Of a DNA stretch of 64,000 bases, positions 24,133-32,594 are shown in pieces (the first letter of the stretch is position 1; the number at the start of each line of letters is the position of its first letter). Below the pieces are notes generated by a model. It ran no database searches. It was given only the letters and a program-made list of their open reading frames with translations, and was not told the origin of the DNA. Where the stretch lies: positions 1 through 64,000 of the forward strand of contig NZ_SELO01000010.1 in assembly GCF_004146235.1 (NCBI RefSeq), in the 5' to 3' direction. The translations under genes and the position numbers were made by a program. This DNA is from Tropicimonas sp. IMCC6043. Its GTDB lineage: Bacteria > Pseudomonadota > Alphaproteobacteria > Rhodobacterales > Rhodobacteraceae.

Positions 24133-25407
24133 ATGCAGATCCTGAGAAATTTGACTGTTGCTTTAGTGGTGCTGTGTCTCCCCCCCGCTCTTTCCGGACA
24201 AAGCTTTGTAGATATTGGAGATTTCGGCGCCGCCTACGCCAAGAACGGCAATAGTGGCAAGGGTTCCGAGAAGAGCGACAATGGCCGCGACAAGGGCTCC
24301 TCAAGCAAGAGCGACCGGGGCGGCAAGAGTGGCGGAATGTCGGGCTCGAACGGCAACGCCTCGAAATCCGCCTCGAAAGGCTCCGAGAAAGCGTCGAAGC
24401 CCGGAAAGTCCGGCGGACTTTTCAAGGGGATCCGGAACGCCTTCGACCCGAAGGCGAAGAAGACGACCAAGGCCAAGAACACCGTCCGGAAAACCGCAAC
24501 CAAGTCGCAGGGCGTCAAGCCGGCGAAGGCGGAGAAAGTGGCCAAACTGGCCGGCGCTGCTGTCGGCGCAGGCTCGGTCGACGCGCAGCTCAAATCCCTG
24601 CACTCGCTCAACCGGAACATCAACGGCCTGATGAACAGCAGCGACCCGAAGATGGATCCGTTCCGCGATTTCATCGAGGCGAGCATCGCCAACGAGGAGG
24701 CCCGGGAGGCGCTGGAAGCGGCGGTCGCGGACATGACGGCCTCTGGAGCGGCATTCGGTGACGCGGCCGAAGCGCTCGGCATCACGGCCACGTCATTCGA
24801 GGAGGCGCAGGCCGATTTGACCAAGATGACGGAACTGCACGCCGGCGCCGTGCCGGAAGAGCCGACGGCGCCCGTCGAAGCGGGTTACAATGACCCGCAG
24901 GACTACCAGGACGCCTTGGCCGCATACAACTCGGCCTACTCGACCTGGCAGCAAGACAAGCAGGCCTGGGATGAAAAATCCGCCGACCTTGCCGAAGCCC
25001 AGGCCCTCGCGGACGCGCTTGCGACCGACCTGGCCACCTACGAGGCGGCCGATGCCAAGGTGATCGAGACCGAGGCGGCGAGTTCCGAGGAAGCGATGCG
25101 TCAGGCGATGGCCGATTCGCTCAATACCACCGGCGCCCGTGGGGTCACCGCGGACGACATGACCGACGAGATGGCGGCCTGGGTGGCCGACCGCCTTGGC
25201 GTTGACGAGTCCGACGGCCTTATCGACGACTATCGCAGCGCGCTGGAGTATCGCGACACACTGGAGACCGACTCCGCCTCGCCGGCAGAGGACGAGGTCG
25301 AAGACGCCGGTCTCGAGGAAGACGACCTCGATGAGGACGACCTCGAAGACGACGAGGTGGTTCTCCTGCAAGACCCCGAGTCCGTCGAGACGGCAGCGGC
25401 CGAGTGA
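24133..25407 (+). CDS. Secreted charge-polarised protein of unknown function
   Basis: A 424-residue protein from the ATG at 24133 (GGAG upstream). A signal peptide (MQILRNLTVALVVLCLPPAL) is followed by a Lys/Ser/Gly-rich basic low-complexity stretch (about residues 33-125). A mostly helical Ala/Glu-rich region follows (DFIEASIANEEAREALEAAV; later YQDALAAYNSAYSTWQQDKQ and TADDMTDEMAAWVADRLGV). The tail is extremely acidic (EEDDLDEDDLEDDEVV). I recognise no catalytic motif or family. The basic-to-acidic layout suggests electrostatic self-association or envelope binding, which is inference. It ends before a bidirectional terminator. Confidence 0.75.
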   Translation: MQILRNLTVALVVLCLPPALSGQSFVDIGDFGAAYAKNGNSGKGSEKSDNGRDKGSSSKSDRGGKSGGMSGSNGNASKSASKGSEKASKPGKSGGLFKGIRNAFDPKAKKTTKAKNTVRKTATKSQGVKPAKAEKVAKLAGAAVGAGSVDAQLKSLHSLNRNINGLMNSSDPKMDPFRDFIEASIANEEAREALEAAVADMTASGAAFGDAAEALGITATSFEEAQADLTKMTELHAGAVPEEPTAPVEAGYNDPQDYQDALAAYNSAYSTWQQDKQAWDEKSADLAEAQALADALATDLATYEAADAKVIETEAASSEEAMRQAMADSLNTTGARGVTADDMTDEMAAWVADRLGVDESDGLIDDYRSALEYRDTLETDSASPAEDEVEDAGLEEDDLDEDDLEDDEVVLLQDPESVETAAAE

Positions 25408-25412
25408 CCGTT

Positions 25413-25447
25413 TTCCGTCCCGGCGGCGCGCAGCCGCCGGGACGGAA
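25413..25447. terminator. Bidirectional intrinsic terminator
   Basis: A perfect 15-bp stem, TTCCGTCCCGGCGGC with its complement, and a 5-base loop, lies between the stops of two convergent genes. TTTT precedes it on the plus strand and the 3' flanks are mixed. Confidence 0.85.
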
Positions 25448-25455
25448 GCATTCCG

Positions 25456-26301
25456 TTATTCCAGGAACTTGAAGACCGAGGGATCCGGCCCGGTCCGCAG
25501 GCCGACATCCAGCGTGCCGATGGCCTCCATCTCATCCGCGGTCAGCTCGAAATCAAAGACATCGAGGTTTTCCGCCTGCCGCTCCGGTCGCACCGAGCGC
25601 GGGATCACCGCATGTCCGAGTTGGACATGCCAGCGCAGGATCACCTGTGCCGGGCTCTTACCGGTGCGGGCCGCCGCGGCGGTGATCGGTTCCTTTTCGA
25701 AGGAGCGGGCGTTGCCGAGCGGCGTCCAGGCCTGGGAGATGATCCCGTTCTCGGAATTGAAGGCACGCAGTTCCGGCTGCTGCAACTCAGGGTTGAGTTC
25801 GATCTGATTGACCGCCGGAACGACGCCGGTCTCCGAGATCAGCCGTTTGAGATGCGAGACGTTGAAATTCGACACGCCGATGGAGCGCATCAGCCCCTCT
25901 TCGCGCATCTCGACAAAAGCCTCCCAGGTCTCGACATAGAGATCCCGGCTCGGCACCGGCCAATGGATCAGCACGAGGTCGAGCTGGTCGACGCCGATCG
26001 TCTTGAGGCTCCGCTCCACCGACGCCCGCGCCCGGGCGCGGCCCTGATCATTGTTCCAGACCTTGGTGGTAACAAAGATGTCCGTGCGCGGCACGCCGGA
26101 GGCGCGCAGCCCCTCGCCGAGCCCGGCCTCGTTCATGTAGAGATAGGCGCCGTCGATCAACCGGTAGCCGGTCCGGATCGCGCTTGCCACCGCCTCCGCG
26201 GCGATCTCCGGCGGCACCTGCCAGATGCCGAAGCCGAGCTGCGGGATCTGGTGGCCGTCATTCATCGTCAGGTTTGGGACGTCGGGCATAGGGAACCTCA
26301 T
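25456..26301 (-). CDS. Aldo/keto reductase
   Basis: A 281-residue NADPH-dependent reductase of the 2,5-diketo-gluconate reductase-like branch. The catalytic tetrad is visible: Asp and Tyr in LIDGAYLYMNEAGLG, Lys in VTTKVWN, His in LVLIHWP. The cofactor-binding end includes VIPRSVRPERQAENL with the usual Arg residues. Substrate is unknown. It is convergent with the secreted-protein gene and shares its terminator. Confidence 0.92.
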   Translation of the reverse strand: MRFPMPDVPNLTMNDGHQIPQLGFGIWQVPPEIAAEAVASAIRTGYRLIDGAYLYMNEAGLGEGLRASGVPRTDIFVTTKVWNNDQGRARARASVERSLKTIGVDQLDLVLIHWPVPSRDLYVETWEAFVEMREEGLMRSIGVSNFNVSHLKRLISETGVVPAVNQIELNPELQQPELRAFNSENGIISQAWTPLGNARSFEKEPITAAAARTGKSPAQVILRWHVQLGHAVIPRSVRPERQAENLDVFDFELTADEMEAIGTLDVGLRTGPDPSVFKFLE

Positions 26302-26394
26302 GCTGTTGAATGATAAGGCGGACGCCGCGCGGCGCCCGACCTTGGCGCGCCGGGGCGTTGCTACCTCGACGCGTCTGTCCGTTTCGTCGGGGCC

Positions 26395-28326
26395 TCAGCC
26401 GGCCGCGGCCTCCTTGGCCTCCTCACTGATCCGCGTGGCCTCCTTGCCATGCAACTCCTCGTAGTGGTCGAAGACCGCCTCATACCAGGCCGTGCCCTGC
26501 GCTGCGCCGCCAAGCGCGCGGGAGAGCTCGCCAAGCGAGCTGTCGGGCAGCAGGGCGTGGAAGATGTCCCAGCCCTTGGCGTCCGGGTTCGGATCGAAGC
26601 CCAGAACCTGCCCCTTGAGCGAGGAGACCAGCGTGACGATGGCGCCCGAGAAGACCGACGGCACATGGATGTCCACCTTGTCGATCGGCTGGAGGAGCAC
26701 CGGCGAGGCGTCGTTCAACGCCTCCCGGACACAGGCCTTGCCGGCGGCGCGGAAGGCGAAATCGGAACTGTCGACCGAATGCGACTTGCCGTCGAGCAGG
26801 GTCACCGCGATGTCGATGACCGGGAAGCCGAGCGGGCCCTGGACGATCGCATCCTTGGCGCCGGCCTCCACCGAGGGGATGTAGTTGCGCGGCACCGCGC
26901 CGCCCTTCACCACCTCGTCGAAGGAGAAACCCTCGCCGCGGGCCTGTGGTCCGATCTTCATCACCACATCGGCGAACTGTCCCGCACCGCCCGACTGCTT
27001 GCGGTGGCGGTGCTGGTGCTCGACGGATTTCGAGATTGTCTCGCGGTAGCGCGCGGAGACCTCCTCGGTTTCGGCCTCGACACCGAAATCACTCTCCAGG
27101 AGCGCCTGTATGCGGCGCAGATGCATCGGGCCCTGAAGCCGCAGCATCGCGTGGCCCGACGCCTCGTCCTGCTCGTAGGTCAGGCCCGGATCGATCTCCG
27201 CGACCCTGGCCAGCGCTGAGGAAAGACGCGCGTCGTCCTTCTCGTGCACCGGCGTGACCAGCGAGGCATAGCTCGGCGGATGGCCGCGCGCCCAGTCCGG
27301 CATCGGATCGCTGCCGGCGGCTGAGAAATACTGGCCGGCATTCAGGTGGTCGGACTTCACCGCCATGCCGATGAAGCCGGGTTCGATCCGGTCGACCGGG
27401 TGCTTGGCCTCGATGCCGCTCAGGTTGCCCACGTTCGCCCCGCCGAGCTGTGCGCCGGCGGTCACCGGCGACGCCAGCGCCCGCAGCACGACGGCCTTGC
27501 CCATGTGCTTGCGATAGCTGGCGAAGACACCCGCGGCGATCGCGTCGGTCCCGATCCGCTCGATCGTCTTCTCTACCGAGGGCGCTTCGTGGCGCAGCGA
27601 CTTCATCAGCCGGGTGATCCCGTTATGGGCGCTTGCGGAGCCGAGGAAGGCGGGAATGTCGTCATTGTCGCGCAGCACCGCGGAGGCGACTTCGTAGACC
27701 TCGTCACGCGGCGGCGCCTTGTCCTCGATCAGCTCCTCGAGCAGGTGATCGTCGAAATCCGAGAGGTGCTCGAGCAGTTCGGCGCGGGCTTCCTGTTCGC
27801 GGTCCAGCACGTCCGCGGGGATCTCGATCAGTTGCGACGGCTGGCCCTCCTGGAACTCCCAGGCGCGTTCGGAGATCAGGTCCACCGTGCCAACGACCTC
27901 GCCGTTTTCGCGGATCGGCACCTGGCGGAGGATGATCGTGTGGTTGGCATAGGCCTGGAGGCTCGACACGATGTCGCGCACACGGTTCTCGGTGGTGTCC
28001 ATCCGGTTGATGAAGAGGATGCAGGGCGTCCCGCTCTCCTCGATCAGGCGCAGGTAGGGCGCGCAGAGCACGGCCGCCTCCGGCTCGGGCGGCACGCAGA
28101 GGATCACGGCGTCACTGGCGGCCAGCGCCTCGCCCGCATAGCCGAGATATTCGGCGCCGCCGGCGATGTCGAAGGCCGCCCAAGGCTCGTCCAGATAGGT
28201 GAACTCGCTCACCGCGAAGAACTCGGAGAGCTCGGACCGGACAGGTTTGGAATCGAGGCTGCCCAGAGCCTCGACGAGTGTCGTCTTGCCCGCGCTCGCG
28301 GGGCCTAGGACGGTGAAACAACGCAT
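26395..28326 (-). CDS. Divergent elongation factor G-like GTPase
   Basis: A 643-residue EF-G paralogue. The P-loop GPASAGKTTL (about residues 8-17), NRMD in place of NKMD, and GSAS give a GTP-binding domain, and domains II-V follow (HYRKHMGKAVVLRAL in the joint to domain II; RYRETISKSVEHQHRHRKQSGG in domain IV). The spacing from P-loop to the third GTPase motif is only about 40 residues, the switch I RGITI element is missing, and the usual DTPGH is DIAGG, so the catalytic His is gone. Translocation on ribosomes is therefore doubtful. I start at MRCFTVLG (28326). Confidence 0.8.
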   Translation of the reverse strand: MRCFTVLGPASAGKTTLVEALGSLDSKPVRSELSEFFAVSEFTYLDEPWAAFDIAGGAEYLGYAGEALAASDAVILCVPPEPEAAVLCAPYLRLIEESGTPCILFINRMDTTENRVRDIVSSLQAYANHTIILRQVPIRENGEVVGTVDLISERAWEFQEGQPSQLIEIPADVLDREQEARAELLEHLSDFDDHLLEELIEDKAPPRDEVYEVASAVLRDNDDIPAFLGSASAHNGITRLMKSLRHEAPSVEKTIERIGTDAIAAGVFASYRKHMGKAVVLRALASPVTAGAQLGGANVGNLSGIEAKHPVDRIEPGFIGMAVKSDHLNAGQYFSAAGSDPMPDWARGHPPSYASLVTPVHEKDDARLSSALARVAEIDPGLTYEQDEASGHAMLRLQGPMHLRRIQALLESDFGVEAETEEVSARYRETISKSVEHQHRHRKQSGGAGQFADVVMKIGPQARGEGFSFDEVVKGGAVPRNYIPSVEAGAKDAIVQGPLGFPVIDIAVTLLDGKSHSVDSSDFAFRAAGKACVREALNDASPVLLQPIDKVDIHVPSVFSGAIVTLVSSLKGQVLGFDPNPDAKGWDIFHALLPDSSLGELSRALGGAAQGTAWYEAVFDHYEELHGKEATRISEEAKEAAAG

Positions 28327-28624
28327 GGCAGATCCTCCAAACTGTGCCGGTTTGGCGGGCTCGACCATGCGCGCGGCCCGGCCCGCTTCTCAAGTGGCGG
28401 GCCTTCGTGGATCCCGCGCGGTCTCGCGCCGCCCTTTTGATCCTGCCGCGTGGCCGGGCCGGGATTCTGACGATCCTGGGGACCGGAATGGCCTTGCCGC
28501 GCGGCCCTCAAGTATTCCGCCGTTGCCGGAGGGAAGGTCAAGGGCCTCGGCGGCGATTTGGCTGCGACATTCCCGTGTTTTCGCCCCGGCGGGCCGCGAC
28601 GGCCGCAGGGCGCCGCACAGAAAG

Positions 28625-28652
28625 TTCACATTCGGCAACTTGAATTTGTGAA
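28625..28652. promoter_or_regulatory. Operator candidate upstream of the sulfide operon
   Basis: TTCACA and TGTGAA arms, extended by TTC and GAA, are separated by 16 bases about 100 bp before the first operon gene. Imperfect and not a match I recognise as a BigR box, so tentative. Confidence 0.3.
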
Positions 28653-28710
28653 CCGGCGGGTTTAGATCGCTTTCCATCTGCCCGTGAATCGGGTCAGGCT
28701 CATGTTACCT

Positions 28711-28729
28711 GCCGGTCCGCCGGACCGGC
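28711..28729 (+). promoter_or_regulatory. Leader hairpin before the sulfide operon
   Basis: GCCGGTCC pairs perfectly with GGACCGGC around GCC, ending 19 bp before the DUF2892 start and just before its ribosome-binding sequence. It could stabilise mRNA or modulate translation; only a short T run follows, so it is a poor terminator. Confidence 0.4.
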
Positions 28730-28748
28730 CTTTGAAAGGGAAAGTGAA

Positions 28749-28958
28749 ATGACCAAGAACATGGGATCCATCGATCGGATCGTGCGTGCCATAGTGGGTA
28801 TCATCTTGCTCGTTCTCGCCTTCACCGGCGGCTGGAGCACGCTCTGGACCGTGATTGCCGCCGTGGTCGGCCTTGTGTTGCTGGCCACCTCGGCTCTCGG
28901 CTACTGCCCGCCCTACTCGATCCTCGGCATCAAGACCAACAAAGCGGACGACGCCTAA
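28749..28958 (+). CDS. DUF2892 (YgaP-like transmembrane) protein
   Basis: A 69-residue protein beginning MTKNMGSIDRIVRAIVGIIL, the hallmark of DUF2892, with two hydrophobic helices and the CPPYSILGIKT ending. The same domain is found attached to rhodaneses in YgaP-type proteins, and free-standing copies occur in sulfide-detoxification operons. First gene of the persulfide operon, 3 bp before the next gene. Precise role unknown. Confidence 0.88.
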   Translation: MTKNMGSIDRIVRAIVGIILLVLAFTGGWSTLWTVIAAVVGLVLLATSALGYCPPYSILGIKTNKADDA

Positions 28959-28961
28959 TAC

Positions 28962-29390
28962 ATGACTATCGTTGATTTTACGCCCCTGCCGGCGCTTCTT
29001 GGCGGCGGGTTGATCGGGCTTGCGACAACGCTCCTGATGGCCTCGATCGGCCGCATCATGGGCGCGACGGGAATCCTCTCCGCCGCCTTCTTCGCCGAGG
29101 ACGACCGCGCATGGCGCTGGTTCCTGCTCGCCGGCATGATCTCCGGTCCGGCGGCCTATCTGACCCTGACGGGAAGCTGGCCGGAGATCACCGTTCCGGT
29201 GTCGACGCTGTCGCTGGTTGTCGGCGGCTTCCTTGTCGGTATCGGCGTCTCCTATGGCTCGGGCTGCACGTCCGGTCACGGCGTCTGCGGACTGGCCCGG
29301 CTGTCGCCGCGCTCGCTGGCGGCAGTGCTGACCTTCATGGCGACGACGGCGATCACCGTCTATGTCGTGCGCCACGTGGTGGGGGGCTAG
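28962..29390 (+). CDS. YeeE/YedE (PmpA-type) sulfur transport protein
   Basis: A 142-residue membrane protein with about four helices. The YeeE/YedE signature GGFLVGIGVSYGSGCTSGHGVCGL carries the conserved Cys thought to relay thiosulfate or persulfide sulfur across the membrane. It is followed by its partner four bases downstream. In this operon type the two half-size permeases are thought to act together; direction and substrate are inferred. Confidence 0.88.
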   Translation: MTIVDFTPLPALLGGGLIGLATTLLMASIGRIMGATGILSAAFFAEDDRAWRWFLLAGMISGPAAYLTLTGSWPEITVPVSTLSLVVGGFLVGIGVSYGSGCTSGHGVCGLARLSPRSLAAVLTFMATTAITVYVVRHVVGG

Positions 29391-30908: not shown

Positions 30909-32594
30909 ATGGACATCAAGAAACTGACAGACAGCATCTCCGTCGCGGGGCAGATCACGGCGGAGGACCTCCCGAAGATCAAGGAGGCCGGGTTCCGCGC
31001 GATCATCTGCAACCGTCCCGACGGCGAGGGCAACGACCAGCCGACCTTCGAGGAAATCGAGATGACGGCACAGGGGCTCGGGCTGGAATGCCGCTACCTG
31101 CCGGTCACCTCCGGAATGGTGCAGGACGAACAGGCCGTGGAATTCGGGCAGGCGCTGACCGAGTTGCCCGGTCCGGTGCTTGCCTATTGCCGTTCCGGGA
31201 TGCGCTCGACGACGCTCTGGTCGCTTTCCCACGCGAAGGACATGGAAACCACCAGGATCCTCGCCACCGCCAAGGCCGCGGGCTATGACATGGGCGGCGT
31301 GGTCCGCCGCATCGTCAATGGCGGCAAGACGCCCACCGATACCGGTGACGCGAAATTCGACGTGGTGATCGTCGGCGGCGGCGCCGGCGGCATCTCGGTT
31401 GCGGCCTCGCTGAAGGCACGGATGCGTGACCTCAACATCGCCCTGATCGACCCGGCCGACATCCACTACTACCAGCCGGGCTGGACCATGGTCGGCGCCG
31501 GCATCTTTGACCCGGCCACCACCGCGCGCACCATGGCGAGCCTGATCCCCAAGGGCGTCCACTGGATCAAGGCCGCCGTCGCCGCCTTCGAGCCCAAGAA
31601 CGACGCGGTGATCCTCGACGGCTGCCGGGTGGTGAAATACGACCGGCTGATCGTCTGCCCGGGCCTCAAGCTCGACTGGCACGCGGTTGAGGGGCTTGTC
31701 GACACGCTCGGCAAGAACGGCGTGACCTCGAACTACCGCTACGACCTCGCGCCCTACACATGGCAGCTCGTGCAGGAGATGAAGGAGGGCCGCGCGCTCT
31801 TCACCCAGCCGCCGATGCCGATCAAATGCGCCGGCGCGCCGCAAAAGGCGATGTATCTCTCGGCCGACCACTGGCACCGCCAAGAACGCCTGAAGGATAT
31901 CGACATCCATTTCATGAATGCCGGCGGCGTGCTCTTCGGGGTGAAGGACTACGTGCCGGCCCTTATGGAATATGTCGAGAAATACGGCGCACATCTCGAT
32001 TTCTTCCACAACCTCGTCGCCGTCGACGGCCCCGCGAAAAAGGCCACGTTCGAGGTGAAGGCGCCGGACACGGAGCCCACCACGGTCGAGGTCGAGTTCG
32101 ACATGATGCATGTCTGCCCACCCCAGACTGCGCCCGATTTCATCCGCGTCTCGCCGCTCGCGGACGCAGCGGGCTGGGTCGACGTCGACCAGATCACGCT
32201 CCAGCACAAGACCTACGAGAACATCTGGTCGCTCGGCGACGTGATGAACGCGCCCAATGCCAAGACCGCCGCCGCGGCGCGGATGCAGGCGCCGGTGGTG
32301 GCCGCCAACGTCACCGCCGACATCCTCGGCGGCTCGCCCCAGGGCGCCTATACCGGCTACGGCTCCTGCCCGCTCACCGTCGAGAAGGGCAAGATCGTGC
32401 TGGCCGAGTTCGGCTATGGCGGCACCATCATGCCGATCCTGCCGACCTGGCTGATCAACGGCAAGAAGCCTACCCGCGCCGCCTGGATCCTCAAGGAGAT
32501 GCTGCTGCCACCGGTCTATTGGCGCGCCATGCTCAAGGGCCGCGAATGGATGGCCAAGCCCGAGAAGGTCACCGGCGACGGTGCCACGGTCTGA
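30909..32594 (+). CDS. Fused DUF442 phosphatase-like/sulfur-transferase domain and sulfide:quinone oxidoreductase
   Basis: A 561-residue fusion. Residues about 1-110 are a TIGR01244/DUF442 domain (MDIKKLTDSISVAGQI) with a CRSGMR Cys-x5-Arg loop. From about 148 it is an SQR-type FAD enzyme: VVIVGGGAGGISVAASL, the YYQPGWTMVGAG motif with no extra Cys nearby, IKCAGAPQKAMY with a redox Cys, and VCPPQTAPDFI then LGDVMNAPNAKTAAA. SQR oxidises sulfide to persulfide/polysulfide and passes electrons to quinone; the DUF442 part may act on the persulfide. The fusion is common in proteobacteria. Membrane-peripheral, periplasm or cytosol side uncertain. Confidence 0.9.
   Translation: MDIKKLTDSISVAGQITAEDLPKIKEAGFRAIICNRPDGEGNDQPTFEEIEMTAQGLGLECRYLPVTSGMVQDEQAVEFGQALTELPGPVLAYCRSGMRSTTLWSLSHAKDMETTRILATAKAAGYDMGGVVRRIVNGGKTPTDTGDAKFDVVIVGGGAGGISVAASLKARMRDLNIALIDPADIHYYQPGWTMVGAGIFDPATTARTMASLIPKGVHWIKAAVAAFEPKNDAVILDGCRVVKYDRLIVCPGLKLDWHAVEGLVDTLGKNGVTSNYRYDLAPYTWQLVQEMKEGRALFTQPPMPIKCAGAPQKAMYLSADHWHRQERLKDIDIHFMNAGGVLFGVKDYVPALMEYVEKYGAHLDFFHNLVAVDGPAKKATFEVKAPDTEPTTVEVEFDMMHVCPPQTAPDFIRVSPLADAAGWVDVDQITLQHKTYENIWSLGDVMNAPNAKTAAAARMQAPVVAANVTADILGGSPQGAYTGYGSCPLTVEKGKIVLAEFGYGGTIMPILPTWLINGKKPTRAAWILKEMLLPPVYWRAMLKGREWMAKPEKVTGDGATV

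Follow-up and report, generated by a model that had tools for sequence, protein, structure and literature searches.

An EF-G paralogue without switch I, conserved in a lineage found mainly in one bacterial family

The window, that is, the whole 64-kb stretch of DNA that was analysed, carries on its minus strand a gene for a paralogue of EF-G. The features to which the text refers are listed below, all on the minus strand, with residues counted in the translation and the source of each assignment in brackets. Papers are cited by PMC number.

26395–28326, minus strand: switch-less EFG II paralogue, translation of 643 aa (NCBIfam NF009379; clade in tree)
28334–28338, minus strand: GGAGG ribosome-binding site, 7 nt 5' of the ATG at 28326 (sequence)
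28282–28305, minus strand: G1 or P-loop, GPASAGKT, residues 8–15 (alignment)
28204–28251, minus strand: site of the switch I/G2 deletion, residues 26–41 (alignment and spacing; two short strands in the model)
28156–28170, minus strand: degenerate G3, DIAGG, residues 53–57 (alignment)
27997–28008, minus strand: G4, NRMD, with Lys changed to Arg, residues 107–110 (alignment)
27721–27798, minus strand: acidic G' helix region, residues 177–202 (conserved columns of a 33-row alignment)
27634–27642, minus strand: G5, GSA, residues 229–231 (alignment)
26704–27060, minus strand: domain IV, residues 423–541 (Pfam; best conserved part relative to canonical EF-G)
26965–27000, minus strand: domain IV loop KQSGGAGQFADV, residues 443–454 (alignment)
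26779–26781, minus strand: His516, aligned with His573 of T. thermophilus EF-G (alignment)
26319–26338, minus strand: weak terminator-like hairpin between the EF-G paralogue and a downstream aldo/keto reductase gene (consensus scan)

The consensus scan returned five terminator-like sites in 25300–29100 against 2.1 expected, and no sigma-70-type promoter in the same interval. Neither Rfam families nor tRNAs were found within the 64-kb window. The G' region of EF-G is described as the part that meets the L7/L12 stalk (PMC3150367).

Family membership and predicted fold

The protein matched NF009379 with 752.7 bits, above the cut-off of 513. Comparison with the profiles of EF-G, EF-G2 and tetracycline-resistance proteins, which the earlier note had proposed, left it below the cut-off of each: canonical EF-G (TIGR00484) with 266.3 bits against 659.4, RGITI and DTPGH being absent; Bacteroides EF-G2 (NF058620) with 218.1 against 1000; and "EF-G-like protein EF-G2" (NF009377), a profile that we take to be of the actinobacterial type, with 242 against 890. 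Tetracycline ribosomal protection (NF012153) was rejected at 150.8 bits against a cut-off of 775. The NF009379 cut-off itself separates EFG II poorly; the genome's canonical EF-G reaches 507.8 bits, and second matches in Alphaproteobacteria, taken for canonical EF-G, score up to 547.

EFG II, with an alphaproteobacteria/Cyanobacteria sub-subgroup, was defined by Margus et al. 2011, who describe R/HxMS/GV in G2 as conserved in the group, DxPG in G3 as conserved in EFG II and the crucial G2 position as kept (PMC3150367); the role of EFGII is called unknown by Atkinson (PMC4342817). The window protein keeps G1, G4 and G5 (GPASAGKT, NRMD and GSA), lacks the G2 motif, the segment being deleted, and has DIAGG in place of DxPG in G3. 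The family is a known one (NF009379; the EFG II of Margus 2011), and the lineage described below, judged by its motifs, is one that breaks the G2 and G3 statements made for it. Clear membership of an already characterised class, which the earlier note had named as a refutation, applies in part: the class EFG II is described, and no description of a switch-less EF-G lineage was found in the mostly open-access literature searched.

An AlphaFold2 model from 33 sequences reached a pLDDT of 86.8 and a pTM of 0.82. The structures closest to it are those of ribosome-bound EF-Gs (Z 34.0 over 625 residues, rmsd 3.1), with superposition on ribosome-bound EF-G over residues 1 to 639, and its strands 29–34 and 37–44 occupy the place of switch I. 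When compared with 8dmf, the ribosome-bound EF-G2 of Bacteroides, the model gave a TM score of 0.85 by query length and 0.77 by target length. Domains II–V had been read as present in the earlier note: Pfam recognises III, IV, V and part of G, and does not recognise II in the window protein, though the model superposes across it. PDB entry 7uvp_A, labelled "Tetracycline resistance protein TetQ", has the same sequence as 8dmf (Bacteroides thetaiotaomicron EF-G2, ribosome-bound).

Loss of switch I and retention of domain IV across a clade

In an alignment of 100 proteins the P-loop Lys14 of the window protein lies 39 positions from the G3 Asp53, and in the 38 rows of its clade this spacing was either 39 (22 rows) or 40 (16 rows). 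It was 58 in 56 of 61 switch-intact alphaproteobacterial paralogues, with values of 46, 52, 57, 59 and 59 in the other five, and 69 in the canonical EF-G of the same genome, a protein with RGITI, DTPGH and an insert. These 61 rows comprise 50 from the class sample, six from the same family and five of the 16 switch-intact loci of the phylum sample. A scan of named genomes gave 521 relatives, of which the best 80 were kept, the remaining 441 being outside every count of 80 given here; spacing among these best 80 was 39 at 77 loci and 40 at three. The difference between 39–40 and 58 means that 18–19 residues, the G2 motif included, have been deleted, and its recurrence in 38 of 38 clade rows and in all of the best 80 named loci of 521 excludes chance. 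The earlier note had stated that the P-loop is kept, that no room is left for switch I and that DTPGH reads DIAGG, and all three readings were borne out. Row L122 (G035), a switch-intact-type paralogue, has the region of switch I separately and partly shortened and is without the MSxE motif; it is most likely the row with a spacing of 46 against 58, and may represent a similar step taken independently.

The switch II His is absent from all 38 switch-less rows and also from all 61 switch-intact paralogues, so its loss is not particular to the window gene. The earlier note had held that this loss removes hydrolysis, a claim that is not supported by comparison with Thermus EF-G-2, which has DAPGY at this place and is cited as hydrolysing GTP and as active in poly(Phe) synthesis (PMC3150367). 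In E. coli EF-G, the H91A, H91R and H91E changes impaired ribosome-associated hydrolysis to varying degrees, and H91Q was reported to hydrolyse GTP like the wild type (PMC4532990). The Thermus GTPase and H91Q together mean that loss of the His leaves the hydrolysis question unsettled; a better argument against hydrolysis is the deletion of switch I. The G3 motif is still DxPG[SAP] in seven early-branching clade rows (L094–L098, L209 and L210) and mostly D-x-[not P]-G-G in the remainder, with DxPGG in four (L060, L064, L066 and L067) and single exceptions reading EVDGG and DIAGS; its Asp is present in 77 of the best 80 of 521 named relatives and replaced by Glu in three. These rows also trace a stepwise erosion: the His is absent in all 99 of them, switch I disappeared on the clade's stem, and the G3 Pro was lost later in most of its members.

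The tree, a quick one restricted to the columns that follow switch II, places the 38 switch-less rows together on one side of a single branch (SH-aLRT 100, stem 0.87), as the sister of the 61 others; a single canonical EF-G, itself on a long branch, is its outgroup, and it is without EFG II of other phyla. The lineage would be either derived from alphaproteobacterial EFG II or sister to it. Of the 240 genomes in the class sample, 87 have a match above 600 bits, the next match being at 547, presumably the point from which canonical EF-G begins, and 50 of the 86 matches other than the window's own were aligned. Using the window protein as query at E <= 1e-80, we found matches in 25 of 149 genomes from the order. 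Of 200 genomes from the phylum 24 had a match, and every one of these belongs to the same class. At E <= 1e-100, 43 of 198 genomes of the family sample had a match and 155 had none; the 43 and the counts into which they divide are lower bounds because weaker matches fall outside the listing. The 43 divide into 35 with switch-less proteins above 600 bits, six with switch-intact proteins (36–39% identity) and two with fragments only (52–59% identical), and both kinds together occurred in no genome among them.

The lineage is found mainly in one bacterial family, and among the named members of the clade are Ruegeria, Tropicimonas, Aliiruegeria, Rhodovulum and Defluviimonas. Three genomes from outside the main family, Oricola (L134) and two of another family (L209 and L210), nest with the clade, which suggests that the gene likely reached other families by horizontal transfer.

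Several motifs are retained throughout. In all of the best 80 of 521 named relatives we found GK[TS], the Asn and Asp of G4, His516 and the motif KQSGG[AS]GQFAD[VI]; the 38 clade rows all have the P-loop Lys14, the G4 Asp and His516, and 37 of them the G4 Asn. The domain IV loop is identical in 71 of the same 80 loci and differs by one residue in the other nine. In canonical EF-G this loop and His573, the counterpart of His516, serve translocation. Compared with the genome's own EF-G, the clade has a mean identity of 0.20 for G1–G3, 0.22 for the rest of G with G', 0.14 for domain II, 0.26 for III, 0.50 for IV and 0.27 for V; for the switch-intact paralogues, compared with the same EF-G, it is 0.25 for II and 0.49 for IV.

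The switch-less gene is under purifying selection. By a simple Nei-Gojobori calculation, dN/dS for the window gene was 0.104 against L137, 0.133 against L129, 0.221 against L131 and 0.125 against L132, and 0.040–0.044 for three Ruegeria-group pairs; taken by domain, II was the loosest and V the tightest in most pairs. Just one of the 35 family-level matches above 600 bits contains a stop, a TGA. All seven genomes tested have one canonical EF-G and one paralogue at E <= 1e-40.

Gene neighbourhood and FnrL boxes

The earlier note had placed the gene next to, and divergent from, the persulfide operon and had proposed a test under sulfide stress. An association with sulfide was rejected, since the neighbourhood is confined to close relatives of the window: persulfide genes occur in the flanks of one of 34 switch-less loci, a locus of the same genus (flanks of at most 8 kb, some much shorter), and near five of the best 80 of 521 named loci, whose proteins are 79–87% identical to that of the window. 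Among 26 other loci, L117 has two persulfide genes 8 kb away. The fetched flanks held no neighbourhood common to the whole clade, and neighbours that we take, from their sequences, to be fnrL-like and hemN-like co-occur in seven of the 34 switch-less loci. Two further genes of the window may be recorded. A small YgaP-like transmembrane protein (PF11127) is encoded at 28749–28958, immediately ahead of the sulfide operon's first YeeE gene, and at 30909–32594 a 561-aa protein fuses a BLH-type phosphatase-like domain (PF04273) with an FAD-dependent oxidoreductase domain (PF07992).

In the literature, R. sphaeroides RSP_2247 and R. capsulatus RCC01495, both named fusA, are listed as activated by FnrL, RCC01495 with a ChIP enrichment of 17 and a 3.48-fold change (PMC4634722), and RSP_2247 also appears in a CrpK list without the mark for sites unbound by FnrL (PMC4263372). 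Within the 2.52 Mb of fetched loci the box published for RSP_2247 has a single occurrence, at contig position 862804 of locus L100, inside the published peak chr1 862600–862999. The same 14-base box is also printed for R. capsulatus dksA2 (PMC4634722), so the match rests on its position and not on the letters alone. The gene beside the box (start 862947 or 862962) is a switch-intact EFG II paralogue with an intact switch I region and DCPGS, and the canonical EF-G of that genome lies at 304298–306412; the box and paralogue are recorded as G290:C4:862804 and 863007–864962. We infer that the genome of L100 is R. sphaeroides, and it is very probable that the FnrL-activated fusA RSP_2247 corresponds to this switch-intact paralogue and not to the translocase EF-G.

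A box with at least 9 of 10 consensus positions precedes two of the six switch-intact genes of the family, against a background of 11/600 (P 0.005), and one with at least 8 of 10 precedes four of six, against 72/600 (P 0.0025). Before the switch-less genes the strong box (at least 9/10) is not enriched, with one in 117 upstream stretches against a background of 3.1%, and the weak box (at least 8/10) shows a slight excess, 26 of 117 against 15.7% (one-sided P 0.04); these 117 stretches include some genomes twice and many near relatives, with start codons guessed by script. One stretch shorter than 150 bases was dropped, that of L222, which is not switch-less. On the same 10-position scale the box printed for RCC01495 itself scores 7, so FnrL may also control switch-less genes.

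Possible functions and comparison with known systems

Our preferred reading, for which we would claim not quite an even chance, is that the protein is a derived, switch-less EFG II factor of the A site that promotes slow translocation by binding energy, without a GTPase cycle. Such a factor would still bind guanine nucleotide, would be recruited to the L7/L12 stalk through the G' helix and would insert domain IV into the A site; there, binding energy alone might drive slow translocation or some step close to it. GTP or GDP would then be a ligand with a structural part, or would signal no more than occupancy. A deleted switch in a protein that keeps the pocket, the stalk helix and domain IV fits this picture. 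Of what the earlier note had suggested, nucleotide binding without a working switch remains plausible from the kept G1, G4 and G5 and the deleted switch I, and association with the ribosome from the conserved G' helix and domain IV. The factor may be used when energy or growth is low; this part is borrowed, because the low-oxygen link belongs to the switch-intact sisters and the strong box is not enriched here. Against the preferred reading stands the strong divergence of domain II (0.14, against 0.25 in switch-intact paralogues). Moreover, the high-affinity GTP state of canonical EF-G on the ribosome depends on an ordered switch I, so the loss of switch I could abolish productive binding.

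A factor without a hydrolysis switch should depart from the ribosome slowly, which would also suit a protein that sits in the A site or splits subunits and so protects or parks idle ribosomes without translocating. EF-G paralogues elsewhere do divide translocation from recycling (PMC3150367), and the gene is dispensable to the family, given the 155 of 198 genomes with no match at E <= 1e-100. We nevertheless regard this explanation as unlikely, for recycling alone might relax the domain IV loop and His516, which are kept in all of the best 80 of 521. The pattern of conservation, with its centre in domain IV, also favours an A-site role over one in ribosome assembly or quality control of the kind played by the eukaryotic Ria1/EFL1. 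EF-G-family members have taken such roles (Ria1, PMC4342817) and a degenerate switch permits a scaffold role, but the presence of a match in just 43 of 198 genomes is odd for an assembly factor, and we hold this alternative to be improbable.

Whether other residues replace switch I and the His in an ordinary, GTPase-active alternative EF-G must be weighed with the two proteins named above, the Thermus EF-G-2 and E. coli H91Q, which hydrolyse GTP without the His, and with the G3 Asp, which is mostly kept (77 of the best 80 of 521). In Thermus EF-G-2, however, the switch I region aligns gaplessly to that of the switch-intact locus L009, whereas the clade has lost the G2 segment itself together with the Thr/Ser that coordinates Mg (role: PMC3150367), which makes continued GTPase activity rather improbable. 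Erosion of motifs and frequent absence in the family might recall a decaying relic. As a general account of the clade this is refuted by the dN/dS values, 0.10–0.22 between the window gene and four relatives and 0.04 in three Ruegeria-group pairs, and it is also opposed by the 34 stop-free sequences among the 35 matches and by the relatives from two other families that nest with the clade; we give it hardly any weight.

It has long been asked whether GTP hydrolysis by EF-G serves as a power stroke, as a timer or as no more than an exit ticket. A conserved relative without switch I, standing beside a normal EF-G and present in named Ruegeria isolates among others, makes the question of the fuel cycle directly testable; with its decoding-site part kept and its GTP-sensing part lost, the paralogue may be a natural test of the need for a GTP cycle. 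It is conceivable, if somewhat doubtful, that we are dealing with an EF-G that has no G-protein switch and is still a motor or a brake of the ribosome, its pocket being a fixed or sensory site (for GTP, GDP or possibly ppGpp) and not a timer. If this were true, a whole lineage (all of the best 80 of 521) would carry the deletion that the translocation field makes by mutation.

By analogy, Bacteroides EF-G2 (fusA2, BT2167; NF058620; 7uvp and 8dmf) may serve as a functional precedent for a switch-less factor: it likewise is a paralogue beside a normal EF-G, shares the overall fold and is described as enabling GTP-independent translation (PMC10294740). The precedent is inexact, since the switch I of Bacteroides EF-G2 is apparently of normal length; a stretch of 126 of its residues is matched to 107 of the window protein (sub-threshold, E 0.27), and in this weak match it is about 19 residues longer from the P-loop to G4. 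M. smegmatis EF-G-2 is cited as binding nucleotide without ribosome-dependent GTPase activity (PMC3150367), and is likened to the window protein by description only. The T. thermophilus EF-G-2 (1wdt) is also without the His (DAPGY) and without the canonical P-loop Asp, but differs in its full-length switch I region. RSP_2247, which matches L100, is very probably an EFG II paralogue from the same bacterial family with switch I intact, unlike the window protein; R. capsulatus RCC01495 is perhaps another such relative. The closest likeness in kind is to the EFG II sub-subgroup, with which the window protein has in common the five-domain layout (in the model), G1, G4 and G5 and the absent switch II His, and from which it differs in that the sub-subgroup keeps the R/HxMS/GV and DxPG motifs (PMC3150367), where the window protein has G2 deleted and the Pro of G3 lost.
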